Shown in pieces: positions 14,501 through 64,000 of a stretch of 64,000 bases of DNA. The notes below the pieces were generated by a model. It saw nothing but the letters and a program-made list of their open reading frames with translations, made no database searches and was not told the origin of the DNA. Each line of letters begins with the position of its first letter. Position 1 is the first letter of the stretch. Both the position numbers and the translations under genes were made by a program. This DNA comes from Antedon mediterranea (taxonomy: Eukaryota; Echinodermata; Crinoidea; Comatulida; Antedonidae): assembly GCF_964355755.1 (NCBI RefSeq), contig NC_092673.1, forward strand, positions 21,145,001 to 21,209,000, in the 5' to 3' direction.

Positions 14501-17500
14501 TATCGGTTCGTTAGATGTTTATAATCAATTCATGCATTTTGTTTAATAAGTGAAATAATGAGTTGGCATGCCTGACATACCCATGTTTACAACTATAGAT
14601 GCCAATATCTTTAGGGTTTTTATAGCACCCTCTGTTGTTTATGTATTATTATAGTGCCCTCTATAATGCCCTAGTTTTACCAAGTTGGTGCAAATTTAAA
14701 GCTTCCTAATTAAGAAGCATTATTGCTACTGTAGGTATTGATTGATATACAAACAATACATAAATCATTTCATTGTTCTACTTGCTGCTAACAACAAATT
14801 TGTGCAAGGCAAATTATAAAATTTTTATTTACATTATTTGTTTATTTATGCATAAATAAAATGAATACATTTTCCTAATTGTTTTCCCACAGCTTCATGA
14901 GCTTGAATATTCCTTAAAAGAAGTGAAAGATGAAAAGGAACTTTTAGAATTCCAATTACTGGAAACTTCGGAGCAAGATTTTTCAATATGTTCAACAGAC
15001 TCACCAAGAGCAAGTACACCAAGAATTTTGGTAAGTAGAAATGAGGAAATTAGAGAAGAAAGGAAGGAGTAGAGGAGAGGAGATAATGAGAGAAGAAAGA
15101 GTGAAGGAGAGGAGACAATGAGAGAAGAAGGAGTGAAGGAGAGGAGATAATGAGAGAAGAAAGAGTGAAGGAGAGGAGACAATGAGAGAAGAAGGAGTGA
15201 AGGAGAGGAGACAATGAGAGAAGGAGTGAAGGAGAGGAGACAATGAGAGAAGAAGGAGTGAAGGAGAGGAGATAATGAGAGAAGGAGTGAAAGAGAGGAG
15301 ATAATGAGAGAAGGAGTGAAAGAGAGGAGATAATGAGAGAAGGAGTGAAAGAGAGGAGATAATGAGAGAAGAAAGAGTGAAGGAGAGGAGACAATGAGAG
15401 AAGAAGGAGTGAAGGAGAGGAGACAATGAGAGAAGGAGTGAAGGAGAGGAGACAATGAGAGAAGAAGGAGTGAAGGAGAGGAGATAATGAGAGAAGGAGT
15501 GAAAGAGAGGAGATAATGAGAGAAGGAGTGAAAGAGAGGAGATAATGAGAGAAGGAGTGAAAGAGAGGAGATAATGAGAGAAGAAAGAGTGAAGGAGAGG
15601 AGACAATGAGAGAAGAAGGAGTGAAGGAGAGGAGACAATGAGAGAAGAAGGAGTGAAGGAGAGGAGACAATGAGAGAAGAAGGAGTGAAGGAGAGGAGAC
15701 AATGAGAGAAGAAGGAGTGAAGGAGAGGAGACAATGAGAGAAGGAGTGAAGGAGAGGAGATAATGAGAGAAGAAAGAGTGAAGGAGAGGAGACAATGAGA
15801 GAAGAAGGAGTGAAGGAGAGGAGATAATGAGAGAAGGAGTGAAAGAGAGGAGATAATGAGAGAAGGAGTGAAAGAGAGGAGATAATGAGAGAAGAAAGAG
15901 TGAAGGAGAGGAGACAATGAGAGAAGAAGGAGTGAAGGAGAGGAGATAATGAGAGAAGAAGGAGTGAAGGAGAGGAGACAATGAGAGAAGAAGGAGTGAA
16001 GGAGAGGAGACAATGAGAGAAGAAAGAGTGAAGGAGAGGAGACAATGAGAGAAGAAGGAGTGAAGGAGAGGAGATAATGAGAGAAGGAGTGAAAGAGAGG
16101 AGATAATGAGAGAAGGAGTGAAAGAGAGGAGATAATGAGAGAAGAAAGAGTGAAGGAGAGGAGATAATGAGAGAAGGAGTGAAGGAGAGGAGACAATGAG
16201 AGAAGAAGGAGTGAAGGAGAGGAGACAATGAGAGAAGAAAGAGTGAAGGAGAGGAGACAATGAGAGAAGAAGGAGTGAAGGAGAGGAGATAATGAGAGAA
16301 GGAGTGTAAGAGAGGAGATAATGAGAGAAGGAGTGAAAGAGAGGAGACAATGAGAGAAGGAGTGAAGGAGAGGAGACAATGAGAGAAGAAAGAGTGAAGG
16401 AGAGGAGATAATGAGAGAAGGAGTGAAGGAGAGGAGACAATGAGAGAAGAAGGAGTGAAGGAGAGGAGACAATGAGAGAAGAAAGAGTGAAGGAGAGGAG
16501 ACAATGAGAGAAGAAGGAGTGAAGGAGAGGAGATAATGAGAGAAGGAGTGAAAGAGAGGAGATAATGAGAGAAGGAGTGAAAGAGAGGAGATAATGAGAG
16601 AAGAAAGAGTGAAGGAGAGGAGACAATGAGAGAAGAAGGAGTGAAGGAGAGGAGATAATGAGAGAAGAAAGAGTGAAGGAGAGGAGACAATGAGAGAAGG
16701 AGTGAAGGAGAGGAGACAATGAGAGAAGAAGGAGTGAAGGAGAGGAGACAATGAGAGAAGAAAGAGTGAAGGAGAGGAGACAATGAGAGAAGAAGGAGTG
16801 AAGGAGAGGAGATAATGAGAGAAGGAGTGAAAGAGAGGAGATAATGAGAGAAGGAGTGAAAGAGAGGAGATAATGAGAGAAGGAGTGAAAGAGAGGAGAC
16901 AATGAGAGAAGAAGGAGTGAAGGAGAGGAGATAATGAGAGAAGAAGGAGTGAAGGAGAGGAGATAATGAGAGAAGAAAGAGTGAAGGAGAGGAGACAATG
17001 AGAGAAGGAGTGAAAGAGAGGAGATAATGAAAGAAGAAAGAAAGAAGTAATCTTTTTACATGTCGTCATAAATTATTAATAATCCAGTTAGATAACTATT
17101 GCTCATTGGCGATAGTTGTATTCGACAGCTCGTGTCTTTCCTCAGTGCTCCCTTTTTATGTATCACTGAAAGGAATTCACTATTGTTACAGGGGTTGCAG
17201 CCACTATAATGTGTTATGATTTAACCCGTGGACTGCTTGTTAAATAAATAAATGTACTGTATTTATTTTGTTTAGATTACTCAGCACCCAAGAACAGAAG
17301 AAGCTGGACTTCATTATGCTTGTACACTTGATCAATTTAATGTATGTATTTTTGTTTGGCCTTTTAAACAATTAATTCCATTGATATTGATATAAAGTTT
17401 GCTGTACACCACGTATATTAGTTCTGAAAAGAACTTCTCACCAGTTCTTTTCAGAACTAATATACGTGGTGTACCGCAAACTTTATATCAACATTTGATT

Positions 17501-36800: not shown

Positions 36801-39800
36801 TGTTCTAACATCTTCATTACGCTCAAAAAAAGTCAGCAGAAATACTATCCACTCCGTGTAAAATTTTAAAAATCTATATCAAATGAGCTCTTTGCCTTCT
36901 GTATGCGAGAGTAGGTAGGTTGAGAATTTTCAGCCTTTCTGAATAAGGTAAATGACGAATGGAAAAAATAAGCTTGGTGGCACGTTCTTGGACTTTTTCC
37001 AATAGGTCTTCCTCCTTACAATGTAGCGAGTTAAAAACAACGTTGCAGTATTCCAAGGTCGGACGAATAATAGCTTTATATAAACGAAGAAACCCATCCA
37101 TATTTAAAAACTTGTTATATTTGTCCCTTTAAGGTATGTCATTTACCCTTTGTTGTTATATTTGTCCCTTTAAGGTATGTCATTTACCCTTTGTTGTTAT
37201 ATTTGTCCCCTTAAGGTATGTCATTTACCCTGTGTTGTTATATTTGTCCCCTTAATGTATGTCATTTACCCTTTGTTGTTATATTTGTCCCTTTAAGGTA
37301 TGTCATTTACCCTTTGTTGTTATTTTTGTCCCTTTAAGGTATGTCATTTACCCTTTGTTGTTATATTTGTCCCTTTAATGTATGTCATTTACCCTTTGTT
37401 GTTATATTTGTCCCTTTAATGTATGTCATTTACCCTTTGTTGTTATATTTGTCCCTTTAAGGTATGTCATTTACCCTTTGTTGTTATATTTGTCCCCTCA
37501 ATGTATGTCATTTACCCTTTGTTGTTATATTTGTCCCTTTAAGGTATGTCATTTACCCTTTGTTGTTATATTTGTCCCTTTAAGGTATGTCATTTACCCT
37601 TTGTTGTTATATTTGTCCCCTTAAGGTATGTCATTTACCCTGTGTTGTTATATTTGTCCCCTTAATGTATGTCATTTACCCTTTGTTGTTATATTTGTCC
37701 CTTTAAGGTATGTCATTTACCCTTTGTTGTTATATTTGTCCCCTTAAGGTATGTCATTTAGTTTTACCCTGTGTTGTTATATTTGTCCCCTTAATGTATG
37801 TCATTTACCCTTTGTTGTTATATTTGTCCCTTTAAGGTATGTCATTTACCCTTTGTTGTTATATTTGTCCCCTCAATGTATGTCATTTACCCTTTGTTGT
37901 TATATTTGTCCCTTTAAGGTATGTCATTTACCCTTTGTTGTTATATTTGTCCCCTTAAGGTATGTCATTTACCCTGTGTTGTTATATTTGTCCCCTTAAT
38001 GTATGTCATTTACCCTTTGTTGTTATATTTGTCCCTTTAAGGTATGTCATTTACCCTTTGTTGTTATATTTGTCCCTTTAAGGTATGTCATTTACCCTTT
38101 GTTGTTATATTTGTCCCTTTAATGTATGTCATTTACCCTTTGTTGTTATATTTGTCCCTTTAATGTATGTCATTTACCCTTTGTTGTTATATTTGTCCCT
38201 TTAAGGTATGTCATTTACCCTTTGTTGTTATATTTGTCCCCTCAATGTACTGTTATGTCATTTACCCTTTGTTGTTATATTTGTCCCCTTAAGGTATGTC
38301 ATTTACCCTGTGTTGTTATATTTGTCCCCTTAATGTATGTCATTTACCCTTTGTTGTTCTATTTGTTCCTTTAAGGTATGTCATTTACCCTTTGTTGTTA
38401 TATTTGTCCCCTCAATGTATGTCATTTACCTTTTGTTGTTATATTTGTCCCCTTAATGTATGTCATTTACCCTTTGTTGTTATATTTGTCCCTTTAATGT
38501 ATGTCATTTACCCTTTGTTGTTATATTTGTCCCTTTAAGGTATGTCATTTACCCTTTGTTGTTATATTTGTCCCCTCAATGTATGTCATTTACCCTTTGT
38601 TGTTATATTTGTCCCCTTAAGGTATGTCATTTACCCTGTGTTGTTATATTTGTCCCCTTAATGTATGTCATTTACCCTTTGTTGTTATATTTGTCCCTTT
38701 AATGTATGTCATTTACCCTTTGTTGTTATATTTGTCTCCTCAATGTATGTCATTTACCCTTTGTTGTTATATTTGTCCCTTTAATGTATGTCATTTACCC
38801 TTTGTTGTTATATTTGTCCCCTTAATGTATGTCATTTACCCTTTGTTGTTATATTTGTCCCTTTAATGTATGTCATTTACCCTTTGTTGTTATATTTGTC
38901 TCCTCAATGTATGTCATTTACCCTTTGTTGTTATATTTGTCCCTTTAATGTATGTCATTTACCTTTTGTTGTTATGTGTATTTGTCCCTAAAAATTAAGA
39001 TAGTAGAATCAGACATTAAATAGGCCATTTTTCAGTTTTAATAAAGTTATTCACTTCAATAAAAAAAAAAATAATAATAATTATTTCACTTATAAAAAAA
39101 CAAAAGAAACAATTAATTTTAACCAAAAATCATTATCTGACAGACAATGGTATATTTTTTGCTTTAAATTACATTTTTTTTTAATCTAGTTTTTGGTCAA
39201 AGTGAATAACTATTACGTGAAATTAAAATGTTATATTAAAAATAAAATGTTGTTAAACTATTTTTTAGCGGACAATATATGTTATTTACCGTGGTTATAT
39301 TTGTCCCCTTAAGATATGTCATTTACCCTTTGTTGTTACTCCTTGTCATCACTTTTCATGCAGTAATCTAAAACAATCCACACTTCATGTTTTAACAAAA
39401 TTATTTGTACTATAATTACACTTTTTTTTCTTAAATCATTGTGTCTATGTATTAATCATTGTGATTTTTTAATTATTTAATTCATAGAATATTTATACAT
39501 TTTTTTTAGGCTAAGGTGTCCTATCTTCGTGAAAAATGCAAAGAAAGAGACTTGATGATTAAGAAAATGAGCAGAGTTCTTCAGGCACATGTTGATTCCA
39601 ATGTAAGTGGAAAACTGTTGTCAGAGATCACAGAAGTACAGACTCTGATACCAGCAGAGGAATACAACCAGCCATTACCACTACCATCACAATTGAAGAA
39701 ATCTCCCAAAAAGGACTATCTACCCAAGGGTAACTCCGCTGCAACTTTTAGCCCGCTTTCGCAAAGGAGCTTTTCATCAGACGGTCTTGATAAAACATCC

Positions 39801-46439: not shown

Positions 46440-49400
46440 GGCGGTGTTCTAAGAAATCCAACCCCCCCATAATTCTCAACCCCCCCTTAACAACGCATGC
46501 GCGAAAAGGGAGTTTTTCATGTTTATTCAACGATTACACGCTTCACTGATCTTCGCTGGCTTGGAGGGGAGGTTGAAAATTTTAGCTAAGCTAAAACTTT
46601 CAACCCCCCGTGAAAGTTAACCCCCCCCCCCCCCCCCCCACACCTCCCTTCTCTTTTGACTGACCCTCTCCCATCTCTTATAGCAGAACCACATAGTTAT
46701 CTAAAACAAAAAATAAATAAACATGGATATTACGAGGGCCTTTTTATAATCATAATTTTATTTTTTTATGTCGCAATAATAATAATACAATTTTCAGAAT
46801 ATCTCCCTCTGTTTTACAAAGAAGTTCTGATTCATTTTTTCATAATCGATCGGTTGTCAACACTATGTCAAATATAAATATAAACAAAATGGTTTTATTT
46901 AAGAACCATTTTGTTTGCGGGGTTCGTTTTCATGGCCTATCTAAAATGTTCAACCCCCTCCCCTCACCCACCTTGGTACCTTCTGTTTAAAAAAGTTCTG
47001 AATCGATTTTCATCATTATTTTTTTATAATCGATCAGTTCTCAACACTAAAAAAAATTGGTTTTAAGTCCGACTATCATAGAAATTGGAGGGGGTTCGTT
47101 TCCACAGCATATACCATGAGGTAGGCCTACTTGTCTAAAATCGTCAACCCCGCTGTGAAAGAATGTCTCCCCTCTGTTTAAAGAAGTTCTGAATCGATTT
47201 TCATCATTATTTTTTCATAATCGATCAGTTCTCAGCACTATGTCAAATATCAATACAAACAAAATTTGGTTTTGAATATCACAGAAATTGGAGGGTGGGG
47301 GGGGGGGGGTTCGTTTTCATGGCCTATCTAAAATTTTCAACCCCCCTGTGAAGGAATGAACCCCCCCGCTTTGTTTAAAGAAGTTCTGAATCGATATTCA
47401 TCATTATTTTTTCATAATCTATCAGTTCTCAACACTATGTCAATTATCAATACAAAAAAAATTGGTTTTACATCAGAATATCATAGAAATTGGAGGGGGT
47501 TCGTTTTCATGGCCTATCTAAAATTTTCAACCCCCCTGTGAAGGAATGACCCCCTTTGTTTAAAGAAGTTCTGAATCAATATTCATCATTATTTTTTCAT
47601 AATCGATCAGTTCTCAACACTATGTCAATTATCAATACAAAATGAATTTGGTTTTACATCAGAATATCATAGAAATTGGAGGGGGGTTCGTTTTCATGGC
47701 CTATCTAAAATTTTCAACCCCCCTGTGAAAGAATGGCCCACCTCTGTTTAAAGAAGTTCTGAATCAATATTCATCATTATTTTTTCATAATCGATCAGTT
47801 CTCAACACTATGTCAATTATCAATACAAAATGAATTTGGTTTTACATCAGAATATCACAGAAATTGGAGGGGGTTCGTTTTCATGGCCTATCTAAAATGT
47901 TCAACCCCCCTGTGAAGGAATGACCCCCCTTTGTTTAAAGAAGTTCTGAATCGATATTCATCATTATTTTTTCATAATCTATCAGTTCTCAACACTATGT
48001 CAATTATCAATACAAAAAAAAATTGGTTTTAAATGCGATTATCACAGAAATTGGAGGGGGGGGGGGTTCGTTTTCATGGCCTATCTAAAATTTTCAACAC
48101 CCCTGTGAAAGAATGAACCCCCTCTGTTTAAAGAAGTTCTGAATCAATATTCATCATTATTTTTTCATAATCGATCAGTTCTCAACACTATGTCAATTAT
48201 CAATACAAAATGAATTTGGTTTTAAATGCGATTATCACAGAAATTGGAGGGGGGTTCGTTTTCATGGCCTATCTAAAATTTTCAACCCCCCCTGTGAAAG
48301 AATGTCCCCCCCCCCCCCCTCTGTTTAAAGAAGTTCTGAATCGATATTCATCATTATTTTTTCATAATCGATCAGTTCTCAACACTATGTCAAATATCAA
48401 TAAAACAAAATTTGGTTTAAAATGAGAATATCATAGAAATTGGAGGGGGGTTCGTTTTCATGGCCTATCTAAAATTTCCAACCCCCCTGTGAAAGAATGA
48501 CCCCCCTCTGTTTAAAGAAGTTCTGAATCAATATTCATCATTATTTTTTCATTATCGATCAGTTCTCAACACTATGTCAATTATCAATACAAAATGAATT
48601 TGGTTTTACATCAGAATATCATAGAAATTGGAGGGGGTTCGTTTTCATGGCCTATCTAAAATTTCCAACCCCCCTGTGAAAGAATGATCCCCCCCCCCCC
48701 CCTTTGTTTAAAGAAGTTCTGAATCGATATTCATCATTATTTTTTCATAATCGATCACTTCTCAACACTATGTCAATTATCAATACAAAAAAAATTGGTT
48801 TTAAATGCGATTATCACAGAAATTGGAGGGGGGTTCTTTCCACAGCATATAACCAGATAGGCCTACTTCTTAAGATTGATTAATGGCTTAAAATATCTAA
48901 TCCAAAATCTGTCATTCTTAAATTGTTTTATGATGTTAAAGGTCGAGGGGTTGGTAGACTTCATTCTTTTGAAAATATTTTTTTCTTTTAAATAAACAAC
49001 TGGTCAATCAGCTAGTAATATTGCAGGTCACCGGTACTGTCAGTATACAGTTGTTAAATTTTATAATATTGAAAATTTTAAACTACATCACATTACACAA
49101 TCTAAAATGTTTGTTTAAAAAAAAACTTATCTAGGCTCACTTCTGCACATGCATTTTAATATGTAACATCTTGTATTTTTATGTATGCGTAGAGAATTGT
49201 TTAATAAACGAAACGAAATGTTCAACCCCCTGTGACGAAATTTCCTCCTCAGTTTTAAGAAGTTTTGAATCGATATTCATCATTATGTTTATAGTAATCG
49301 ATCAGTTCTCAACACTACGTTAATTATCAATACAAACAAAAATTTGTTTTAAATCAGAATATCATAGAAATTGGATCGGAGGGGGGTTCGTTTTCATGGC

Positions 49401-52400
49401 CTATCTAAAATTTTCAACCCCCCTGTGAAGGAATGACCCCCTTTGTTTAAAGAAGTTCTGAATCGATATTCATCATTATTTTTTGATAATCTATCAGTTC
49501 TCAACACTATGTCAATTATCAATACAAAAAAAATTGGTTTTAAATGCGATTATCACAGAAATTGGAGGGGGGGTTCGTTTTCATGGCCTATCTAAAATTT
49601 TTAACCCCCCTGTGAAAGAATGAACCCCCTCTGTTTAAAGAAGTTCTGAATCAATATTCATCATTATTTTTTCATAATCGATCAGTTCTCAACACTATGT
49701 CAATTATCAATACAAAATGAATTTGGTTTTACATCAGAATATCATAGAAATTGGAGGGGGTTCGTTTTCATGGCCTATCTAAAATTTTCAACCCCCCTGT
49801 GAAGGAATGACCCCCTTTGTTTAAAGAAGTTCTGAATCGATATTCATCATTATTTTTTCATAATCGATCAGTTCTCAATACTATGTCAAATATCAATAAA
49901 ACAAAATTTGGTTTTAAATCAGAATATCATAGAAATTGGAGGGGGGTTCGTTTTCATGGCCTATCTAAAATTTCCAACCCCCTGTGAAAGAATGACCCCC
50001 CTCTGTTTAAAGAAGTTCTGAATCAATATTCATCATTATTTTTTCATTATCGATCAGTTCTCAACACTATGTCAATTATCAATACAAAATGAATTTGGTT
50101 TTACATCAGAATATCATAGAAATTGGAGGGGGTTCGTTTTCATGGCCTATCTAAAATTTCCAACCTCCCTGTGAAGGAATGACCCCCCTTTGTTTAAAGA
50201 AGTTCTGAATCGATATTCATCATTATTTTTTCATAATCGATCACTTCTCAACACTATGTCAATTATCAATACAAAAAAAATTGGTTTTAAATGCGATTAT
50301 CACAGAAATTGGAGGGGGGGTTCTTTCCACAGCATATAACCAGATAGGCCTACTTCTTAAAGTTGATTAATGGCTTAAAATATCTAATCCAAAATCTGTC
50401 ATTCTTAAATTGTTTTATGATGTTAAAGGTCGAGGGGTTGGTAGACTTCATTCTTTTGAAAATATTTTTTTCTTTTAAATAAACAACTGGTCAATCAGCT
50501 AGTAATATTGCAGGTCACCGGTACTGTCAGTATACAGTTGTTAAATTTTATAATATTGAACATTTTAAACTACATCACATTACACAATCTAAAATGTTTG
50601 TTTAAAAAAAAACTTATCTAGGCTCACTTCTGCACATGCATTTTAATATGTAACATCTTGTATTTTTATGTATGCGTAGAGAATTGTTTAATAAACGAAA
50701 CGAAATGTTCAACCCCCTGTGACGAAATTTCCTCCTCAGTTTTAAGAAGTTTTGAATCGATATTCATCATTATGTTTATAGTAATCGATCAGTTCTCAAC
50801 ACTACGTTAATTATCAATACAAACAAAAATTTGTTTTAAATCAGAATATCATAGAAATTGGATCGGAGGGGGGTTCGTTTTCATGGCCTATCTAAAATTT
50901 TCAACCCCCCTGTGAAGGAATGACCCCCTTTGTTTAAAGAAGTTCTGAATCGATATTCATCATTATTTTTTCATAATCTATCAGTTCTCAACACTATGTC
51001 AATTATCAATACAAAAAAAATTGGTTTTAAATGCGATTATCACAGAAATTGGAGGGGGGGTTCGTTTTCATGGCCTATCTAAAATGTTTAACCCCCCTGT
51101 GAAAGAATGAACCCCCTCTGTTTAAAGAAGTTCTGAATCAATATTCATCATTATTTTTTCATAATCGATCAGTTCTCAACACTATGTCAATTATCAATAC
51201 AAAATGAATTTGGTTTTACATCAGAATATCATAGAAATTGGAGGGGGTTCGTTTTCATGGCCTATCTAAAATTTTCAACCCCCCTGTGAAGGAATGACCC
51301 CCTTTGTTTAAAGAAGTTCTGAATCGATATTCATCATTATTTTTTCATAATCGATCAGTTCTCAACACTATGTCAAATATCAATAAAACAAAATTTGGTT
51401 TTAAATCAGAATATCATAGAAATTGGAGGGGGGTTCGTTTTCATGGCCTATCTAAAATTTCCAACCCCCCTGTGAAAGAATGACCCCGCTCTGTTTAAAG
51501 AAGTTCTGAATCAATATTCATCATTATTTTTTCATTATCGATCAGTTCTCAACACTATGTGAATTATCAATACAAAATGAATTTGGTTTTACATCAGAAT
51601 ATCATAGAAATTGGAGGGGGTTCGTTTTCATGGCCTATCTAAAATTTCCAACCCCGCTGTGAAGGAATGACCCCCCTTTGTTTAAAGAAGTTCTGAATCG
51701 ATATTCATCATTATTTTTTCATAATCGATCACTTCTCAACACTATGTCAATTATCAATACAAAAAAAATTGGTTTTAAATGCGATTATCACAGAAATTGG
51801 AGGGGGGTTCTTTCCACAGCATATAACCAGATAGGCCTACTTCTTAAGGTTGATTAATGGCTTAAAATATCTAATCCAAAATCTGTCATTCTTAAATTGT
51901 TTTATGATGTTAAAGGTCGAGGGGTTGGTAGACTTCATTTTTTTGAAAATATTTTTTTCTTTTAAATAAACAACTGGTCAATCAGCTAGTAATATTGCAG
52001 GTCACCGGTACTGTCAGTATACAGTTGTTAAATTTTATAATATTGAAAATTTTAAACTACATCACATTACACAATCTAAAATGTTTGTTTAAAAAAAAAC
52101 TTATCTAGGCTCACTTCTGCACATGCATTTTAATATGTAACATCTTGTATTTTTATGTATGCGTAGAGAATTGTTTAATGAAACGAAACGAAATGTTCAA
52201 CCCCCTGTGACGAAATTTCCTCCTCAGTTTTAAGAAGTTTTGAATCGATATTCATCATTATGTTGATTGTAATCGATCAGTTCTCAACACTACGTTAATT
52301 ATCAATACAAACAAAAATTTGTTTTAAATCAGAATATCATAGAAATTGGATCGGAGTGGGTTCGTTTTCATGGCCTATCTAAAATTTTCAACCTCCCTGT

Positions 52401-55400
52401 GAAGGAATGACCCACCTTTGTTTAAGAAGTTCTGAATCGATATTCATGATTATTTTTTCATAATCTATCAGTTCTCAACACTATGTCAATTATCAATACA
52501 AAAAAAATTGGTTTTAAATGCGATTATCACAGAAATTGGAGGGGGGTTCGTTTTCATGGCCTATCTAAAATTTTCAACCCCCTGTGAAAGAATGACCCCC
52601 CCCCCCCCCCTCTGTTTAAAGAAGTTCTGAATCGATATTCATCATTATTTTTTCATAATCGATCAGTTCTCAACACTATGTCAAATATCAATAAAACAAA
52701 ATTTGGTTTTAAATCAGAATATCATAGAAATTGGAGGGGGGTTCGTTTTCATGGCCTATCTAAAATTTCCAACCCCCCCTGTGACAGAATGACCCCCCTC
52801 TGTTTAAAGAAGTTCTGAATCAATATTCATCATTATTTTTTCATTATCGATCAGTTCTCAACACTATGTCAATTATCAATACAAAATGAATTTGGTTTTA
52901 CATCAGAATATCATAGAAATTGGAGGGGGTTCGTTTTCATGGCCTATCTAAAATTTCCAACCCCCCTGTGAAGGAATGACCCCCCTTTGTTTAAACAGGG
53001 AGTTGTTATTAACTCCCTGGTTTAAAGAAGTTCTGAATCGATATTCATCATTATTTTTTCATAATCGATCACTTCTCAACACTATGTCAATTATCAATAC
53101 AAAAAAAATTGGTTTTAAATGCGATTATCACAGAAATTGGAGGGGGGTTCTTTCCACAGCATATAACCAGATAGGCCTACTTCTTAAGGTTGATTAATGG
53201 CTTAAAATATCTAATCCAAAATCTGTCATTCTTAAATTGTTTTATGATGTTAAAGGTCGAGGGGTTGGTAGACTTCATTCTTTTGAAAATATTTTTTTTC
53301 TTTTAAATAAACAACTGGTCAATCAGCTAGTAATATTGCAGGTCACCGGTACTGTCAGCATACAGTTGTTAAATTTTATAATATTGAAAATTTTAAACTA
53401 CATCACATTACACAATCTAAAATGTTTGTTTAAAAAAAAACTTATCTAGGCTCACTTCTGCACATGCATTTTAATATGTAACATCTTGTATTTTTATGTA
53501 TGCGTAGAGAATTGTTTAATAAACGAAACGAAATGTTCAACCCCCTGTGACGAAATTTCCTCCTCAGTTTTAAGAAGTTTTGAATCAATATTCATCATTA
53601 TGTTTATAGTAATCGATCAGTTCTCAACACTACGTTAATTATCAATACAAACAAAAATTTGTTTTAAATCAGAATATCATAGAAATTGGATCGGAGGGGG
53701 GTTCGTTTTCATGGCCTATCTAAAATTTTCAACCCCCCTGTGAAGGAATGACCCCCTTTGTTTAAAGAAGTTCTGAATCGATATTCATCATTATTTTTTC
53801 ATAATCTATCAGTTCTCAACACTATGTCAATTATCAATACAAAAAAAATTGGTTTTAAATGCGATTATCACAGAAATTGGAGGGGGGTTCGTTTTCATGG
53901 CCTATCTAAAATTTTCAACCCCCCTGTGAAAGAATGACCCCCCTCTGTTTAAAGATGTTCTGAATCGATATTCATCATTATTTTTTCATAATCGATCAGT
54001 TCTCAACACTATGTCAAATATCAATAAAACAAAATTTGGTTTTAAATCAGAATATCATAGAAATTGGAGGGGGGTTCGTTTTCATGGCCTATCTAAAATT
54101 TCCAACCCCCCTGTGAAAGAATGACCCCCCTCTGTTTAAAGAAGTTCTGAATCAATATTCATCATTATTTTTTCATTATCGATCAGTTCTCAACACTATG
54201 TCAATTATCAATACAAAATGAATTTGGTTTTACATCAGAATATCATAGAAATTGGAGGGGGTTCGTTTTCATGGCCTATCTAAAATTTCCAACCCCCCTG
54301 TGAAGGAATGACCCCCCCCCCCCCCTTTGTTTAAAGAAGTTCTGAATCGATATTCATCATTATTTTTTCATAATCGATCACTTCTCAACACTATGTCAAT
54401 TATCAATACAAAAAAAAATTGGTTTTAAATGCGATTATCACAGAAATTGGAGGGGGGGGGGGCGGGTTCTTTCCACAGCATATAACCAGATAGGCCTACT
54501 TCTTAAGATTGATTAATGGCTTAAAATATCTAATCCAAAATCTGTCATTCTTAAATTGTTTTATGATGTTAAAGGTCGAGGGGTTGGTAGACTTCATTCT
54601 TTTGAAAATATTTTTTTCTTTTAAATAAACAACTGGTCAATCAGCTAGTAATATTGCAGGTCACCGGTACTGTCAGCATACAGTTGTTAAATTTTATAAT
54701 ATTGAAAATTTTAAACTACATCACATTACACAATCTAAAATGTTTGTTTAAAAAAAAACTTATCTAGGCTCACTTCTGCACATGCATTTTAATATGTAAC
54801 ATCTTGTATTTTTATGTATGCGTAGAGAATTGTTTAATAAACGAAACGAAATGTTCAACCCCCTGTGACGAAATTTCCTCCTCAGTTTTAAGAAGTTTTG
54901 AATCAATATTCATCATTATGTTTATAGTAATCGATCAGTTCTCAACACTACGTTAATTATCAATACAAACAAAAATTTGTTTTAAATCAGAATATCATAG
55001 AAATTGGATCGGAGGGGGTTCGTTTTCATGGCCTATCTAAAATTGTCAACCCCCCTGTGAAGGAATGACCCCCTTTGTTTAAGAAGTTCTGAATCGATAT
55101 TCATGATTATTTTTTCATAATCTATCAGTTCTCAACACTATGTAAATTATCAATACAAAAAAAATTGGTTTTAAATGCGATTATCACAGAAATTGGAGGG
55201 GGGTTCGTTTTCATGGCCTATCTAAAATTTTCAACCCCCCTGTGAAAGAATGACCCCCCTCTGTTTAAAGAAGTTCTGAATCGATATTCATCATTATTTT
55301 TTCATAATCGATCAGTTCTCGATCAACACTATGTCAAATATCAATAAAACAAAATTTGGTTTTAAATCAGAATATCATAGAAATTGGAGGGGGGTTCGTT

Positions 55401-56960
55401 TTCATGGCCTATCTAAAATTTCCAACCCCCCCTGTGAAAGAATGACCCCCCTTTGTTTAAAGAAGTTCTGAATCAATATTCATCATTATTTTTTCATTAT
55501 CGATCAGTTCTCAACACTATGTCAATTATCAATACAAAATGAATTTGGTTTTACATCAGAATATCATAGAAATTGGAGGGGGTTCGTTTTCATGGCCTAT
55601 CTAAAATTTCCAACCCCCCTGTGAAGGAATGACCCCCTCCCCCCCTTTGTTTAAAGAAGTTCTGAATCGATATTCATCATTATTTTCTCATAATCGATCA
55701 CTTCTCAACACTATGTCAATTATCAAAACAAAAAAAAATTGGTTTTAAATGCGATTATCACAGAAATTGGAGGGGGGGCGGGTTCTTTCCACAGCATATA
55801 ACCAGATAGGCCTACTTCTTAAGGTTGATTAATGGCTTAAAATATCTAATCCAAAATCTGTCATTCTTAAATTGTTTTATGATGTTAAAGGTCGAGGGGT
55901 TGGTAGACTTCATTCTTTTGAAAATATTTTTTTCTTTTAAATAAACAACTGGTCAATCAGCTAGTAATATTGCAGGTCACCGGTACTGTCAGTATACAGT
56001 TGTTACATTTTATAATATTGAAAATTTTAAACTACATCACATTACACAATCTAAAATGTTTGTTTAAAAAAAAACTTATCTTGGCTCACTTCTGCACATG
56101 CATTTTAATATGTAACATCTTGTATTTTTATGTATGCGTAGAGAATTGTTTAATAAACGAAACGAAATGTTCAACCCCCCTGTGAAAGAATGAACCCCCT
56201 CTGTTTAAAGAAGTTCTGAATCAATATTCATCATTATTTTTTCATAATCGATCAGTTCTCAACACTATGTGAATTATCAATACAAAATGAATTTGGTTTT
56301 ACATCAGAATATCATAGAAATTGGATCGGAGGGGGTTCGTTTTCATGGCCTATCTAAAAATTTCAACCCCCCTGTGAAGGAATGACCCCCCTTTGTTTAA
56401 AGAAGTTCTGAATCGATATTCATCATTATTTTTTCATAATCTATCAGTTCTCAACACTATGTCAATTATCAATACAAAAAAAATTGGTTTTAAATGCGAT
56501 TATCACAGAAATTGGAGGGGGTTCGTTTTCATGGCCTATCTAAAATTGTCAACCCCCCTGTGAAAGAATGACCCCCCTCTGTTTAAAGAAGTTCTGAATC
56601 AATATTCATCATTATTTTTTCATAATCGATCAGTTCTCAACACTATGTCAATTATCAATACAAAATGAATTTGGTTTTACATCAGAATATCATAGAAATT
56701 GGAGGGGGTTCGTTTTCATGGCCTATCTAAAATTTTCAACCCCCCTGTGAAGGAATGAAATCCCTTTGTTTAAAGAAGTTCTGAATCGATATTCATCATT
56801 ATTTTTTCATAATCGATCAGTTCTCAACACTATGTCAATTATCAATACAAAAAAAATTGGTTTTAAATCAGAATATCATAGAAAATGGAGAGGGGGAGGG
56901 GGGTAGGTACGTTTTCATGTCCTATCGAAAATTTACAACGCCCCTAAATAAGTTCTGAAT
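46440..56960. repeat. 10-kb satellite: ~190-bp units in 1.3-1.5-kb higher-order repeats
   Basis: The basic unit runs from a C-run (CAACCCCCCTGTGAAAGAATG) through GTTCTGAATCGATATTCATC, ATAATCGATCAGTTCTCAAC and TCATAGAAATTGGAGGGGGG to GGCCTATCTAAAATTTTC. I estimate about 40 units. C and G homopolymers vary from about 4 to 19. An extra ~360-bp segment (beginning CAGCATATAACCAGATAGGC) recurs at about 48846, 50331, 51818, 53157, 54476 and 55794. That defines higher-order periods of ~1.49 kb early and ~1.32 kb later. No coding frames of substance. Confidence 0.95.
48840..49220 (+). mobile_element. LINE/retroposon 3'-end-like segment captured in the satellite (first of six copies)
   Basis: Contains GAGGGGTTGGTAGACTTCAT, AGGTCACCGGTACTGTCAG and a terminal TTTAATAAACGAAACGAAA, resembling a retroposon 3' UTR with AATAAA signal. 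It is present once per higher-order unit and amplified with it. Family unassigned. Confidence 0.4.
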
Positions 56961-58363
56961 TGGTATTCATCATTATTTTGTCATAATCAATTAGTTCAGT
57001 GGGTGTTTATTGACAGAAATCCAAATAGCCTAGTACTACTAGTATACTCTTACGGTGTTGTTCTATTGACAAAACTACATGGTGCAGTATTTAAGTTGAG
57101 TTATTGTACCACCAATTGTGTTTGAAATTATTATGAGTATATTCATTACTTTGAATGGTGCAAGAATTCTATTTAAAATGTCATCACTGAAGAGTACACT
57201 GTGCAGTACTTGATGGACCAGGCTGCCAGGCAAAACAGATCACTCCAAAAATATCTGAATGATGATTGGGTATTGGTTCACTATAATCACAATCTTATTG
57301 GTTAAAAATAATAACAGAAGTTTAATAACAAAGTTAGAAATTATTTTGCATACAAATGTTGATTGGTATCCTATTGGTGGATAGTAATGAATTTAGTGAA
57401 ATCCTATTGGTTAATAGAAAGTATCCTGGAAGCAATAAAAGAACGAAACCGTAATTGTTAAAACTGTTTTGCTGTCTGATCAGCTGAATCTAGATACATT
57501 TTTTCAAGTTTAACATCAACAAGGTAGGCATGAGTACCTCTCATTATATACTGTAGTAAATAAATTTCCAGCATGATAATTCAATTGGCTAGGTTGATAA
57601 TTTTTTTTTACATAATTAATTAGCTGTATGAATGTATACATTTCTCCTAGAACTTGTTGAAAAACGATCTTTTTGTAAGCATATTTCTGTAAGTAATATG
57701 TTCTTGTAAATAGGTCTTGTGACATACTGTGATTACATATAAATAAAAAAAAAAATTATCAACCTAGCCAATTGAATTATCATTACTGTTAAATTGCATT
57801 TCGAGAATAAATAAAGTTTTGAATTGAATTGAATACATCGTTTGGTTCATACTAGACTAGACACGTGTTGGTTTGTCAGTTGGTACTATTCTAGTAGTAG
57901 ATAAAATACTTATAACATATAACCAGGGTGTTTACATGAATAAGCATATGCTTGATCATAACACATGAATAGAATGATGTATCGTTACACAAAATAATAT
58001 AGAATTTGAGTATCCGCTCATTAAATCAATTTTATTATCATTTAAACTATCAACCGGATAAACGTTTTACACATTATTGCAGACAATTTTAAGCAAAATT
58101 AATATATGCCTGTAAAAAAAATAATAAAATATATTTGGTTAAATTAAAATTGTGTCCATGAAGACAATAGGTTTCAATAAGTCTTGATACAAATTAATTA
58201 CTTTGGTGAAATTTATTTACACAATTATTAAGCGGTTACTTTCTATTTAAAACTGGGCCTTAGTTACAGTGCCTATAAATTAAATACAAACATTTAAAAA
58301 ACATTTTTTTTAAAAGTAAACAATTTTGCCCATCTCCAAAGTAAATGTTTAGGTTGTAAAACT
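56961..58363. other. Spacer upstream of the integrase gene
   Basis: Contains a 211-bp foldback (57573-57783, arms of ~37 bp around CAATTGGCTAGGTTGATAA) and an adjacent LINE-like tail ending in (GAATT)n at 57808-57835. No promoter recognised. Confidence 0.5.
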
Positions 58364-58481
58364 ATGGAAGAAGAATATGACAAGGTATATAATTACCTGA
58401 GTAATTCTAGTTATCCAGAGGGATGTTCCAAAGAGGATAAACGGAGGATCAGAAGAAAATGCCTGAATTTTGTTATACAAG
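58364..58481 (+). CDS. Integrase exon 1 (residues 1-39)
   Basis: ATG at 58364 followed by EEEYDKVYNYLSNSSYPEG; ends caag|gtatat, phase 1. The Y..L..YP..S..DKRRIRRK pattern is the usual start of GIN1/KRBA2-type proteins, which supports this start. Confidence 0.8.
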
Positions 58482-60199
58482 GTATATAAACATTTACTAC
58501 TAATTCACACCATCCCCAACTACAGGGAGGTTGCGAACAACTGTAAAAACTATTTCTCTTATAATACAGATTATAAATAATTCAAAAATAAATATCAATT
58601 TGTAGGCAAAAATCTAAGAGTAAACAAATACTCTTCAAAGGTAAATGACTATACAGTTTTGTTTTGTTATTACAAATTAGTAGTATTATAGAACTTGTGT
58701 TATCAACGCTGACTCCATTCTTCATTGTTTTAAATACTTCTTTAATTCTTGTTTTGTTTTTCCTTTTTGTAATCTACAATAAAATAAATACAATTTGATA
58801 TCAATATTAATCATTATTCATAATTATATTTTTATTAAATCTAGGAAAAATCCTTCACCGAAAAATAAAGGATGGAAGAGTTGTCAAATGCATAAAAACA
58901 AAAGAAGAAGCAAAAGAAGTCTTGAGACAGGTACACGACATACCAACAGGGGGGCATCTAGGCCGAAACAAAACACAAAAGATGGTGTGTGCACGTTTTT
59001 ACTGGCCAGGCCAAACACTAATGATAAATGAATGGGTAAGCTTGAAATCTTATGAAGGTATACATTTTTTTAAGATTACAATTTCTCTTATGGTAACAGT
59101 CTTTTATTCAGTCTATTTACAATTGGAAAGTTTTGTTTAAATAAACAATTATTTACATAAATAATGTTTAGCTGTCAGACATCATATGAAAGTTTGGAGA
59201 TGTAAATTGCTAGAATATATAGAACAATGTATCTTAACAATAAAATATTTTGTTTAACTTCTAGATAACAAACTGCTTGTCTTGCCAGAAAGGAGACAGC
59301 TTAAAGTCAATTTCAAGGGAACTCCAACCAATAGCAGTATGACTTTATTGTTTATTTTTATTCTGATCTAAGAATGGTTTTTTCATTACAAAAAAAAGAT
59401 CATCATCAAAACATTATTAATCAAACCAGGCAACTCACTCATACTGGTTGACCAAGTATTGATTTTTAATTGAGGGTGTATGTTTCCATTCATGTTTGTG
59501 CCAAAAAATGTTTTGCAGTTTAAAAAACGAATTTTGTTTTACAGTATAATTGTGAATCTCAAAACTACATTACTTTTAAAGGTTTCAAAAATTCTGCCCT
59601 ACCAGACCAACAGCATTATTTAAAATATATGTTGTAAATTAAATTTAATTGTTTTGTTTCTGCAGGTAACTGGCCCTTTTGAGATGATGGGCATTGATTT
59701 AATGGGCCCATATAAAACATCAGACGGAGGAAAAAAGTACATATTTACCGCTACTGATTACTACACCAAATGGTGCGAGGCCTTTGTCATTCGGCAAAAA
59801 ACAAGTGAGGAGGTAGCAGAGTGCATGGTAAAAATTTACCACAGACATGGTGCCGTTAAATCAATCATAAGCGACAACGGAAAAGAGTTTGTAAATAAGG
59901 TTAGTTCATTATGAGTTAAGTATATATTAAGCGTCTCTACAACAATATATAATTCGTTGAATTTCAAATGGGAATAGAAAATAATGTAATTGTTAATGTT
60001 TTTCAAAACTGAAGGTTAACGAGAGACTTTGCAAAATATTGGGGGTACAACATAGGAAAACAACAGCTTACCATCCACAATCAAATGGCTTGGATGAAAG
60101 TACCAATAAAAAAATAAAGAGGTATGTGCATCTTTACAATTATAATATTCAATCAGCACGTTGAAACTAAAATAAATACCCGCCCTTGAGTGGTTGCCA

Positions 60200-60236
<37 letters not shown>

Positions 60237-63200
60237 GTTGGTTTTTAAAAGTATAAAACATTTCCAGTACAATATCGGTTATTTTAAAATTCAATTATAC
60301 TCTCCCGAACACTTTTCTTTTACACCAAACCAGTAAAATTTGGCCACTAGTCCCAACTCCAGTAACATCCAGAGAAAGTGGATAACAAGGACCCCATATT
60401 GGCCGCTATATTTGATTTAAGATGACGGATAATGTTCAAAGTTCACATCAATATTCCTAGATGTGTAAGGATGTGTGGAAAAAAAAATCTTATAAACCTT
60501 CTCAATTGTATACAGATGGCAATAACAAATCCACTATTATCAAACAGTAAATATATGTATAGTCATTAATTTCCATAACATCATCCAAATGTTGGTTTTA
60601 TATTTCAGTTGCCTGAGTAAATTAATGGATCAAAAAAAAGATGACTGGGAAAGGTACCTGGATTCAGTCGTTTTCGCCTTAAATATCAACTGGCACACGA
60701 CTACAGAGTACAGTCCATTTTTCCTCCTGTACCACAGAAAACCTAAAATACCAGCTGAGATAAGTGACGAAGATGAAGAGTGGGTAGGGACCAATGTATT
60801 TTTACATCCATTTTCTCTTCATCTGAGCAGAATGCCATTTGGCAGGAAACATCATCAATGTTTTGCATAAATGCCTTACTGACAACCATATTTCTAGACG
60901 AAATAAAATTATGGTTTCAATTATTATCGTTATTAACAATTGTGCAATTTTTAATTTATTAGTGTTCTGATATTATGTATAAATTTGTATCTCTAAAAAC
61001 AGTTATCAAACCTATCGTGCATAACAGAGGCAAATGAAGAAATGGTGAAAAACAGAGGCAATGCCATCAAAGAAACGACCAAAGCTGTTCTAAAAAATAT
61101 AAAGAAAAAGCAGAAACAATACAAAACAAAATATGACAAAAAGTTAAAAAAACCAGCCATTGAAGTAGGTTCAAAAGTTTTAAAATTCAACCAAAGAAAA
61201 CGAAATATTAAAGGAAATCGTTTGCAACCGAACTTCAGTGGTCCCTATATTGTTGCATCCATTGAAGGTAAGACTGTCACACTAAAAGATGAAAATGGAA
61301 GTGTTTTGAAATCAAGAACAAGCCTTGATCACATCCGTATATGCAATGAGAGTAACACAGAAAAAAGTATCTGTGAAGAGCCAAAAAACAATGATGATGA
61401 AGATCTACGTAAGTACATAATGTAACATTTGAATTAAACTCATCTTTTAAATCTATAGTATAGGAATTGTTTGTGGTCATGAAGACAATGTAAATACATG
61501 TCTCTATAAATTAACATGCATATGTATAGTATTCAATATGTTTTTATTTCAGCAAATCAAGGTTATAATAATTATATTTTTCTAGCAGAAGATGTTACAG
61601 AACCACACCATGAGCCAGGTAAGTTGTTACATTTATAAATACATTATTCTTAACGTTCTTTTATGGCATTTATTTACATTTAATTATTTCAGCAAATCAA
61701 GTTTAAAATAATTATCTTTTTCTAGCAGATGATGTTACAGAACCACACCATGAGCCAGGTAAGTTGTTATATTTATAAATACATTATTCTCAACGTTCTT
61801 TTATGGCATTTATTTACATTTAATTATTTTAGCAAATCAAGTTTATACTAATTATCTTTTTTTAACAGATGATGTTACAGACCCACATCATGAGCCAGGT
61901 AAGTTGTTATATTTATAAATACATCATTCTCAACGTTCTTTTATGGCATTTATTTACATTTAATTATTTCAGCAAATCAAGTTTATACTAATTATCTTTC
62001 TTTTTTAACAGATGATGTTAAAGAACCACGTCATGAGCCAGGTAAGTTGTTATATTTATAAATACATTATTCTTAATGTTGATTTATGGGATTTTCTTTT
62101 ATTTAATTAGTTTAGCAAATCAAGTTTATACTAATTATCTTTTGTTAACAGATGATGTTACAGAACCACATCATGAGCCAGGTAAGTTGTTATATTTATA
62201 AATACATTATTCTCAACGTTCTTTTATGGCATTTATTTACATTTAATTATTTTAGCAAATCAAGTTTATACTAATTATCTTTTGTTAACAGATGATGTTA
62301 CAGAACCACACCATGAGCCAGGTAAGTTGTTATATTTATAAATACATTATTCTTAATGTTGTTTTATGGCATTTATTTACATTTAATTATTTCAGCAAAT
62401 CAAGTTTATAATAATTATCTTTCTTTTTTAACAGATGATGTTACAGAACCACATCATGAGCCAGGTAAGTTGTTATATTTATAAATACATTATTCTTAAC
62501 GTTGATTTATGGGATTTTCTATTATTTAATTATTTCAGCAAATCAAGTTTATAATAATTATCTTTTGTTAACAGATGATGTTACAGACCCACACCATGAG
62601 CCAGGTAAGTTGTTATATTTATAAATACATTATTATTAATGTTGTTTTCTGGCATTTATTTACATTTAATTATTTCAGCAAATTAAGTTTATACTAATTA
62701 TCTTTTGTTAACAGATGATGTTACAGAACCACGTCATGAGCCAGGTAAGTTGTTATATTTATAAATACATTATTCTTAACGTTGATTTATGGATTTTTTT
62801 AAATTTAATTATTTAAGCATATCAAGTTTATAATAATTATCTTTTGTTAACAGATGATGTTACAGAACCACATCATGAGCCAGGTAAGTTGTTATATTTA
62901 TAAATACATTATTCTTAACGTTCTTTTATGGCATTTATTTACATTTAATTATTTCAGCAAATCAAGTTTATAATAATTATCTTTTGTTAACAGATGATGT
63001 TACAGAACCACATCATGAGCCAGGTAAGTTGTTATATTTATAAATACATTATTCTTAATGTTGATTTATGGGATTTTCTTTTATTTAATTAGTTTAGCAA
63101 ATCAAGTTTATACTAATTATCTTTTGTTAACAGATGATGTTACAGAACCACATCATGAGCCAGGTAAGTTGTTATATTTATAAATACATTATTCTCAACG

Positions 63201-64000
63201 TTCTTTTATGGCATTTATTTACATTTAATTATTTTAGCAAATCAAGTTTATACTAATTATCTTTTGTTAACAGATGATGTTACAGAACCACATCATGAGC
63301 CAGGTAAGTTGTTATATTTATAAATACATTATTATTAATGTTGTTTTATGGCATTTATTTATATTTAATTATTTCAGCAAATCAAGTTTATACTAATTAT
63401 CTTTTGTTAACAGATGATGTTACAGACCCACACCATGAGCCAGGTAAGTTGTTATATTTATAAATACATTATTATTAATGTTGTTTTATGGCATTTATTT
63501 ACATTTAATTATTTCAGCAAATCAAGTTTATAATAATTATCTTTTCTTTTTTAACAGATGATGTTACAGAACCACACCATGAGCCAGGTAAGTTGTTATA
63601 TTTATAAATACATTATTCTTAACGTTGATTTATGGGATTTTCTATTATTTAATTATTTCAGCAAATCAAGTTTATAATAATTATCTTTTGTTAACAGATG
63701 ATGTTACAGAACCACATCATGAGCCAGGTAAGTTGTTATATTTATAAATACATTATTATTAATGTTGTTTTCTGGCATTTATTTACATTTAATTATTTCA
63801 GCAAATTAAGTTTATACTAATTATCTTTTGTTAACAGATGATGTTACAGAACCACGTCATGAGCCAGGTAAGTTGTTATATTTATAAATACATTATTCTT
63901 AACGTTGATTTATGGGATTTTTTTAAATTTAATTATTTAAGCATATCAAGTTTATAATAATTATCTTTTGTTAACAGATGATGTTACAGAACCACATCAT
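58364..64000 (+). CDS. GIN1-like: GIN1/Ginger-type integrase gene with micro-exon array (3' incomplete)
   Basis: Seven phase-compatible exons give ~434 residues, followed by an array of micro-exons running past the window. Order: N-terminal helical segment (1-39), H2C2 zinc site (H70, H77, C107, C110), rve integrase core with D138, D197 and E233 (D,D-35-E), and GPY/F domain (GPY 379-381). This matches the whole architecture of vertebrate GIN1 and Ginger-type transposases, which derive from Ty3/gypsy-like integrases. I see no gag, protease, reverse transcriptase or LTRs, so it is not an intact LTR element. The intact triad means either a recently domesticated or a still active transposase (inference). 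The C-terminal decapeptide tail is not a known GIN1 feature. Confidence 0.8.
58845..59035 (+). CDS. Integrase exon 2 (residues 40-103), zinc-site histidines
   Basis: Acceptor aaatctag, donor tgg|gtaagc; phase 1 to 0. Carries H70 (RQVHDIP) and H77 (GGHLGRNKT), then FYWPG, the canonical integrase H2C2 (zf-H2C2) motif. Confidence 0.9.
59265..59336 (+). CDS. Integrase exon 3 (residues 104-127), zinc-site cysteines
   Basis: Acceptor acttctag, donor gca|gtatga, phase 0. TNCLSCQKGD gives C107 and C110, completing H-x6-H-x29-C-x2-C. Confidence 0.9.
59666..59899 (+). CDS. Integrase exon 4 (residues 128-205), catalytic D138 and D197
   Basis: Acceptor tttctgcag, donor aag|gttagt, phase 0. GIDLMGPY gives D138; TDYYTKWCEAF follows; SIISDNGKEF gives D197. 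Confidence 0.93.
60015..60121 (+). CDS. Integrase exon 5 (residues 206-240), catalytic E233
   Basis: Acceptor actgaag, donor agag|gtatgt, ends phase 2. HPQSNGLDESTNKKIK places E233 exactly 35 residues after D197. Confidence 0.9.
60122..60608. other. Intron with (ATT)n at 60201-60236
   Basis: AT-rich intron with a trinucleotide microsatellite of about 12 copies. Nothing else. Confidence 0.6.
60609..60783 (+). CDS. Integrase exon 6 (residues 241-299)
   Basis: Acceptor tatttcag, donor tgg|gtaggg; starts phase 2, ends phase 0. DDWERYLDSVVFALNINWH and YSPFFLLYHRKPKIP are the conserved end of the gypsy-type integrase core. Confidence 0.9.
61003..61408 (+). CDS. Integrase exon 7 (residues 300-434), GPY/F domain
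   Basis: Acceptor aaaaacag, donor ctac|gtaagt, ends phase 1. A lysine-rich helix (KNIKKKQKQYKTKYDKK), then FSGPYIVASIEGKTVTL and LDHIRI, the GPY/F domain and its chromo-like C-terminal fold, then an acidic tail. The phase-1 donor matches all downstream micro-exons. Confidence 0.9.
61553..61618 (+). CDS. Array unit 1: 66-nt exon with internal acceptor giving a 30-nt core
   Basis: Outer acceptor tatttcag at 61552 gives a 66-nt open phase-1 exon. An inner tctagcag permits starts at 61586 or 61589 (a tandem NAG-type acceptor). All three choices keep frame and end at agccag|gtaagt. The core reads (Q/E)DVTEPHHEP. Confidence 0.75.
61589..64000 (+). repeat. Tandem array of >=18 micro-exon units, period ~140 bp
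   Basis: Core exons: 61589-61618, 61729-61758, 61869-61898, 62012-62041, 62152-62181, 62292-62321, 62435-62464, 62575-62604, 62715-62744, 62854-62883, 62994-63023, 63134-63163, 63274-63303, 63414-63443, 63558-63587, 63698-63727, 63838-63867 and 63978-64000 (cut by the window edge). Each complete one is exactly 30 nt, bounded by ttaacag (tctagcag in the first two) and gtaagt, phase 1 on both sides, and encodes DDVTEPHHEP with variants E/D and H/R. Introns of ~110 bp contain a second, upstream AG (atttcag or similar). Intron variants recur 7-8 units apart, indicating block duplication. Confidence 0.92.
61729..61758 (+). CDS. Micro-exon 2 (30 nt, decapeptide DDVTEPHHEP)
   Basis: Representative unit: acceptor tctagcag, donor agccag|gtaagt; split first codon G|AT. 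In this unit the upstream acceptor would run into TAA, so only the 30-nt form is open. The other micro-exons are listed in the array entry. Confidence 0.78.

Follow-up and report, generated by a model that had tools for sequence, protein, structure and literature searches.

The linker of a Ginger1/GIN-type integrase gene in the crinoid Antedon mediterranea is probably coded by symmetrical phase-1 micro-exons, one of which has been multiplied to 24 copies, with splicing predicted from the DNA. The gene begins in a 64,000-nucleotide stretch of contig NC_092673.1 (the window, C4:21145001-21209000) and runs past its end; we call it the C4 gene. Positions are given in window numbering on the forward strand, and values above 64000 lie on the same contig beyond the window. 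C4, C1, C2 and so on are contigs of the searched genome (354 Mb, 18 contigs), and the C1 gene is a paralog on another chromosome. Both genes are known here from DNA alone, with exons read by their splice signals. We observed directly the DNA anatomy of the array, the open frame, the splice signals, the domains, a second array on the paralog and blocks of near-identical units.

The first-pass annotation had described at least 18 tandem, symmetrical 30-nt micro-exons on an integrase gene. We confirmed this array and found that the assembly holds 24 full exons plus a 6-nt remnant exon at 66520-66525. Direct reading and a motif script placed 17 complete units inside the window and an 18th cut by its end. 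Unit spacing was 139-144 bp, and every complete unit contained a 30-nt exon ending in CCAG followed by gtaagttgtt. Tandem Repeats Finder reported the array at 61544-64000 with a period of 140, 17.5 copies and 92% matches, in agreement with the earlier description of an unbroken ~140-bp unit with a strong gtaagt donor. Past the window, the array continues unbroken to 64699, giving 23 contiguous units (exons within 61589-64699), and the 24th full exon follows at 66607-66636 after a 1.9-kb interruption.

Micro-exons 1 to 17, all on the forward strand and supported by the motif script and the gene model, lie at 61589-61618, 61729-61758, 61869-61898, 62012-62041, 62152-62181, 62292-62321, 62435-62464, 62575-62604, 62715-62744, 62854-62883, 62994-63023, 63134-63163, 63274-63303, 63414-63443, 63558-63587, 63698-63727 and 63838-63867. 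Micro-exon 18 occupies 63978-64000 in the window; its true end is 64007 (DNA past the window, gene model). All 24 array exons run from phase 1 to phase 1, and the preceding integrase exon (61003-61408) ends in phase 1, so that its donor phase fits the array. Because each exon is 30 nt long and symmetrical, any subset keeps the frame, as had been proposed. Translation of the array gave (D)DVTEPHHEP repeats with few variants.

The C4 gene was modelled as 45 exons with 44 introns. It starts with an ATG at 58364, and its stop, at 71871, lies 7.9 kb beyond the end of the window. All introns are GT-AG, and the 1,142 codons contain no internal stop. Along the gene, the H2C2 zinc finger, the DDE integrase and the GPY motif come first, then the linker with its 24 array exons and five further phase-1 micro-exons, and finally the Ulp1-type protease and the PHD finger. 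Pfam searches identified PF17921 Integrase_H2C2 (E = 1.7e-17), PF00665 rve (E = 4.8e-15), PF02902 Peptidase_C48 (E = 2.6e-11) and PF00628 PHD (E = 1e-7). The assignment to a GIN/Ginger-type integrase was thus upheld by the H2C2 finger, the DDE core and the GPY motif. The protease and PHD finger further downstream mark it as a Ginger1-type transposase gene, with the array placed in the linker. The C4 integrase aligns with the PFV integrase across the catalytic residues, with the D, D and E of the triad kept; the triad is intact in both the C4 and C1 genes. The C4 protease aligns with SENP1 and keeps its His, Gln and Cys; the SENP1 Asp is Asn in both paralogs.

The exons upstream of the array lie on the forward strand. 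Exon 1 (58364-58481; gene model, with a matching first exon in the C1 paralog) carries the start ATG and a YPYY-like N-terminus, and exon 2 (58845-59035) the H2C2 zinc finger. Exon 3 (59265-59336) is followed by exon 4 (59666-59899), with the first two D residues of the triad, and exon 5 (60015-60121), with the E. Exon 6 (60609-60783) precedes exon 7 (61003-61408), which codes for the GPY motif. By eye, this motif reads NFSGPYIV in C4 and NFTGPFKV in C1. In the YPYY region upstream of the zinc finger, YP is present in both genes and the last two aromatics are partial (F then L/H in C4, F then Y in C1; by eye). Judged by eye, the N-terminus, MEEEYDKVYNYL, lacks hydrophobic character. A 35-nt candidate second exon at 58606-58640 was dropped, as it broke the frame. 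Beyond 64000 and up to 71871, on the same strand, lie six more array exons, five phase-1 micro-exons (33, 27, 36, 36 and 42 nt, each phase 1 to 1) and nine exons for the Ulp1 protease, the PHD finger and the C-terminus.

A DNA search revealed a diverged array on C1, at the same place in a paralogous gene. The C1 gene has 1,138 codons in 50 exons and is open throughout. Its PF17921, PF00665 and PF02902 domains are all above the Pfam cut-off; Pfam gave no PHD hit, though the region aligns with the C4 PHD region. The C1 array contains 29 modelled exons: 28 are 27 nt long and one is 24 nt long. Each runs from phase 1 to phase 1, and the predicted product is of the DNITEPQEP type (Tandem Repeats Finder: 132-bp period, 26.8 copies). 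The array exons of the two genes thus differ by exactly one codon (30 versus 27 nt). After the array, the 27-nt and 36-nt micro-exons share length and phase and are similar in sequence between C4 and C1. Exons of phase 1 and at most 45 nt make up 26% of the coding length in each gene (894/3429 nt in C4, 888/3417 nt in C1).

The two proteins are 58% identical in the integrase half (236/408) and 50% in the protease half (214/430). Nonsynonymous divergence (dN) was 0.36 and 0.39 for the two halves, and synonymous divergence was not computable. Fourfold-degenerate sites were identical at 33% (24/73) and 40% (27/67), against saturation expectations of 28% and 34%. The paralogs are distant, and their synonymous sites are near saturation. 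Such dN values beside nearly saturated fourfold sites suggest that purifying selection acts on both genes.

Could the array instead be an intronic satellite with splice-like motifs that the mRNA skips? Tandem repeats abound in the window (36 Tandem Repeats Finder rows), among them a 187-bp array that ends 1.5 kb upstream of the gene, and the units of the micro-exon array homogenise as satellites do. The splice signals point the other way. Scores were taken from a weight matrix of 40 non-array donors of the C4 and C1 genes, with a small matrix for acceptors, and 2011 GTs at 20-58 kb of the window served as the donor control. We observed that the gtaagt donors scored 11.6 in 24/24 C4 units, a value that 0/2011 control GTs reached. 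A branch-point-like TAMTAAT site (TACTAAT or TAATAAT) precedes 23 of the 24 C4 exons, at a distance of 18 nt in 19 of them. Variable columns were also fewer in exons than in introns (C4: 4/30 versus 40/114, P = 0.025, Fisher test, 22 units of the 24 exons; C4 and C1 pooled: 10/57 versus 91/243, P = 0.005, Fisher test). Gapped columns were absent from the exons of either unit set (pooled: 0/57 versus 41/243, P = 1.5e-4). The paralog's own array, at the same gene position, with exons one codon shorter and all modelled exons open and in the same phase, is the strongest evidence that the units are probably coding exons rather than satellite. Together, these data suggest that a skipped intronic satellite is very unlikely.

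Several observations weigh against our proposal of spliced 30-nt exons. The array units are copies of each other, and the column tests above are therefore non-independent; in C1 alone, exon and intron columns did not differ significantly (6/27 versus 51/129, P = 0.12; 24 units, 25/29 exons). The last modelled exon of the C1 array has a weak donor (5.1), and three decayed edge units in C1 (near assembled positions 10025, 10277 and 13850), which lack usable splice sites or symmetry, were left out of the model. In a database of 5.8 billion proteins, a search with the linker found no repeat-bearing protein record (E up to 10, 746 candidates), and a motif scan found the repeat in 0/121 listed relatives of the C4 protein. 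The best-scoring relative of the full protein was 36% identical over 49% of the query, and the highest identity was 38% (120 of 330 relatives listed). The C-terminal part gave one match, 33% identical over 41%. On the same side stand the inner acceptors, which are ordinary: 17/24 C4 units scored 6.7, equal to the control median of 6.7, and the others scored 8.2-9.9. An upstream AG, 36-40 nt before the 30-nt acceptor, scored higher than the inner one in 20/23 units, lower in two and the same in one.

This upstream acceptor raises the alternative that the true exon is 66-69 nt long, so that ANQVYTNYLLLT-like residues precede the decapeptide either constitutively or by alternative splicing. In 17/23 units, the 12-13-codon extension is open and in frame. 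It contains a stop in 4/23 and shifts the frame in 2/23, and constant use of the upstream acceptor would thus break the protein. The branch-point-like site stands 3' of the upstream AG, and by eye the C1 units have no AG at the corresponding place (another AG further upstream in C1 is unscored). We consider the longer exon improbable. The claim that each exon is exactly 30 nt accordingly stands as the likeliest case, with an alternative acceptor in 23 units. The array start that had been given, 61553, follows the upstream AG: the first 30-nt exon begins at 61589, and 61553-61588 on the forward strand is a possible 36-nt 5' extension of micro-exon 1 (upstream acceptor ATTTCAG).

We compared array units with each other and between the paralogs. 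C4 units 5-6 and 12-13, seven units apart, showed 0 and 1 differences, and units 7-11 and 15-19, eight units apart, showed 3, 2, 0, 1 and 3. These near-identical blocks fit block duplication by unequal exchange. The array introns of C4 and C1 are still alike (median z = 4.1, range 2.1-5.9, 40 random pairs; 112 controls at or below 2.9, so that the ranges overlap). The 13 other C4/C1 intron pairs were not alike (z = -3.1 to 2.4). The likeness of the array introns may reflect either constraint on the intron or later sequence exchange between the arrays.

We propose that one linker micro-exon and its intron were multiplied together, with unequal exchange as the likeliest mechanism. The copies, spliced in series, would form an acidic, proline-rich spacer of DDVTEPHHEP repeats between the integrase and the protease. 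Gain or loss of copies in the DNA, or exon skipping in the RNA, may then alter the length of this spacer among individuals or transcripts and leave the downstream enzyme intact, because each copy comprises whole codons in one phase.

We next considered whether the C4 gene could be a Ginger1 DNA transposon that is still active, as opposed to a domesticated gene. The DDE triad is intact in both genes, and the domain order is that of Ginger1 elements with Ulp1 and PHD in the accessible text of PMC2836005. The genome contains at least four close integrase loci, of which the C4 and C1 genes are intact and those at C2:24.21M and C4:15.47M are partial (150/592 and 150/604 candidates scored). The C2:24.21M copy retains three array units, and the segment between the array and about 70738 is missing; upstream, its match reaches satellite-like sequence where the retrieved DNA ends. 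The C4:15.47M copy corresponds to about 58170-61288 and lacks the array. The two partial copies thus have different boundaries, as expected of segmental duplications. Weaker integrase matches were at most 48% identical, many of them in long open frames as in retroelements (two inspected individually).

At the C4 gene, we found no terminal inverted repeat (TIR) pair of Ginger1 size between 8.4 kb upstream and 12.1 kb downstream; the best pair was 35 bp (80%, E = 0.024) and lay in satellite. A simple scan at C4 for CCGG/CCGT beside TGT ends returned one candidate left end (57052) and no right end. At C1, one 42-bp inverted match (93%) joined many upstream satellite units to a single site ~3 kb past the stop. 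A tree built from 19 hand-chosen integrase rows joined C4 and C1 with support of 100/99 and placed them with a GIN protein from fish and with a third gene of the same genome, one in several pieces (95/95). A wider group, with lower support (91/97), took in P0002, which bears Ulp1, and P0042, a Hydra protein judged Ulp1-bearing by eye. An active transposon therefore appears unlikely. The low copy number and the lack of detected TIRs at C4 make it likelier that the C4 gene is a domesticated or immobile Ginger1-derived gene that has kept its protease and PHD finger.

Further Ulp1 exons, 46-58% identical to those of the C4 gene, occur at C3:3530474-3530917 and C4:13324419-13330189; no close integrase match was among those listed at these Ulp1 loci (C3:3.53M, C4:13.33M). 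An integrase-core fragment (DLFGPMPTTEHGNKYVVTSTDLF) at C4:12555775-12556364 recurs in four neighbouring matches.

As far as the accessible text of Bao et al. 2010 (PMC2836005; Ginger1-9_HM) describes them, Ginger1 elements have 0-4 introns, typically encode 500-800 amino acids, carry TIRs of ~40-270 bp and reach more than 100 copies. The C4 gene resembles Ginger1 elements with Ulp1 and PHD in its H2C2 finger, DDE integrase, GPY motif, C-terminal Ulp1 protease, PHD finger and the occurrence of introns. It differs in its 44 introns, its 1,142 amino acids, the absence of a detected TIR at the locus, its at least four close loci and its micro-exon array. Vertebrate GIN1/GIN2 and malacostracan Imagin are, like the C4 gene, multi-exon host genes from a Ginger1-type transposase, at low copy and with the protein under selection; in the accessible portions of PMC3424704 and PMC12863088, eight coding exons are given for GIN2 and three exons for PjImagin. 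The term Ulp1 is absent from both texts, and those portions mention no repeated exons, in contrast to the C4 gene. Imagin has also lost the DDE triad (PMC12863088, accessible portion), which is intact in the C4 gene.

Repeated exons are also found in other proteins. Titin PEVK exons code for repeated protein segments, and Davis et al. in 1988 reportedly described tandemly repeated 81-base exons in a Schistosoma mansoni gene. In both, repeated exons code for repeated segments, as here, in other proteins and with other exon sizes. Schistosome micro-exon genes (MEGs) had been named as the nearest analogy. MEGs share short symmetric exons, some called tandem, and possible frame-safe skipping with the C4 gene, judging from the accessible parts of PMC4350168, PMC5825161, PMC3961193 and PMC10526429. 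In the same partial texts, ~80% of MEG coding length lies in symmetric exons of 6-36 bp (PMC5825161), and MEGs encode secreted proteins with signal peptides (PMC4350168, PMC10526429). The C4 gene, with 26% of its coding length in micro-exons and with integrase, Ulp1 and PHD domains, resembles MEGs in exon layout only and is not one of them; the analogy holds to that extent. A literature search found no report of a transposase-derived gene with an array of micro-exons; most subscription papers fell outside this search, and absence is unproven.

The 1.9-kb interruption before the 24th array exon includes an insert (64715-66430) with two exon-like open pieces in phase 1, one of 162 nt and a second of 167 nt that closes with a stop. 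Joined to array exon 23 by splicing, these pieces would yield an alternative C-terminus without the protease; they had no Pfam hit. The insert is related (82% in part) to a PHD-OTU element with five similar loci of equal top score, two on C2 and one each on C3, C5 and C11. At C2:15345804-15350517, PHD and OTU domains are just above the cut-off. This locus also carries a row of at least eight repeated exons, 162-522 nt long. Their lengths are all divisible by three and they share one open phase; we infer that these exons and the PHD-OTU frame belong to one gene.

The 187-bp array upstream of the C4 gene has about 52 copies (47134-56896). A tandem array also stands upstream of the C1 gene (L014 37-6267), with units ~94 bp apart. 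Elsewhere in the window are 32-bp units at 15073-17038 (63.8 copies) and 41-bp units at 37112-38975 (45.2 copies), and 14-18 kb is strongly purine-rich on the forward strand.

Our data raise a broader, tentative possibility: that proteins of this lineage in which a transposase- or protease-type enzyme is linked to a further module carry genome-coded adjustable spacers, in the form of symmetrical phase-1 exon arrays that grow and shrink by unequal exchange and skipping. Two Ginger1-type paralogs, whose divergence is old enough for synonymous sites to have become saturated, would both have retained such arrays, which would have a counterpart in the row of larger exons on the separate PHD-OTU element with its five loci. 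The proposed C4 linker would by itself be a clear natural case of a minisatellite-like array, with an intron in each unit, that codes for a protein spacer, and the gap between two enzyme domains could then be adjusted by changes in copy number as well as by splicing. The separately homogenised 30-nt and 27-nt arrays on the two paralogs would offer a built-in replicate for selection on frame and phase. The gene also raises the question of what role a protein that combines a DNA integrase with a SUMO-type protease may play in a host.

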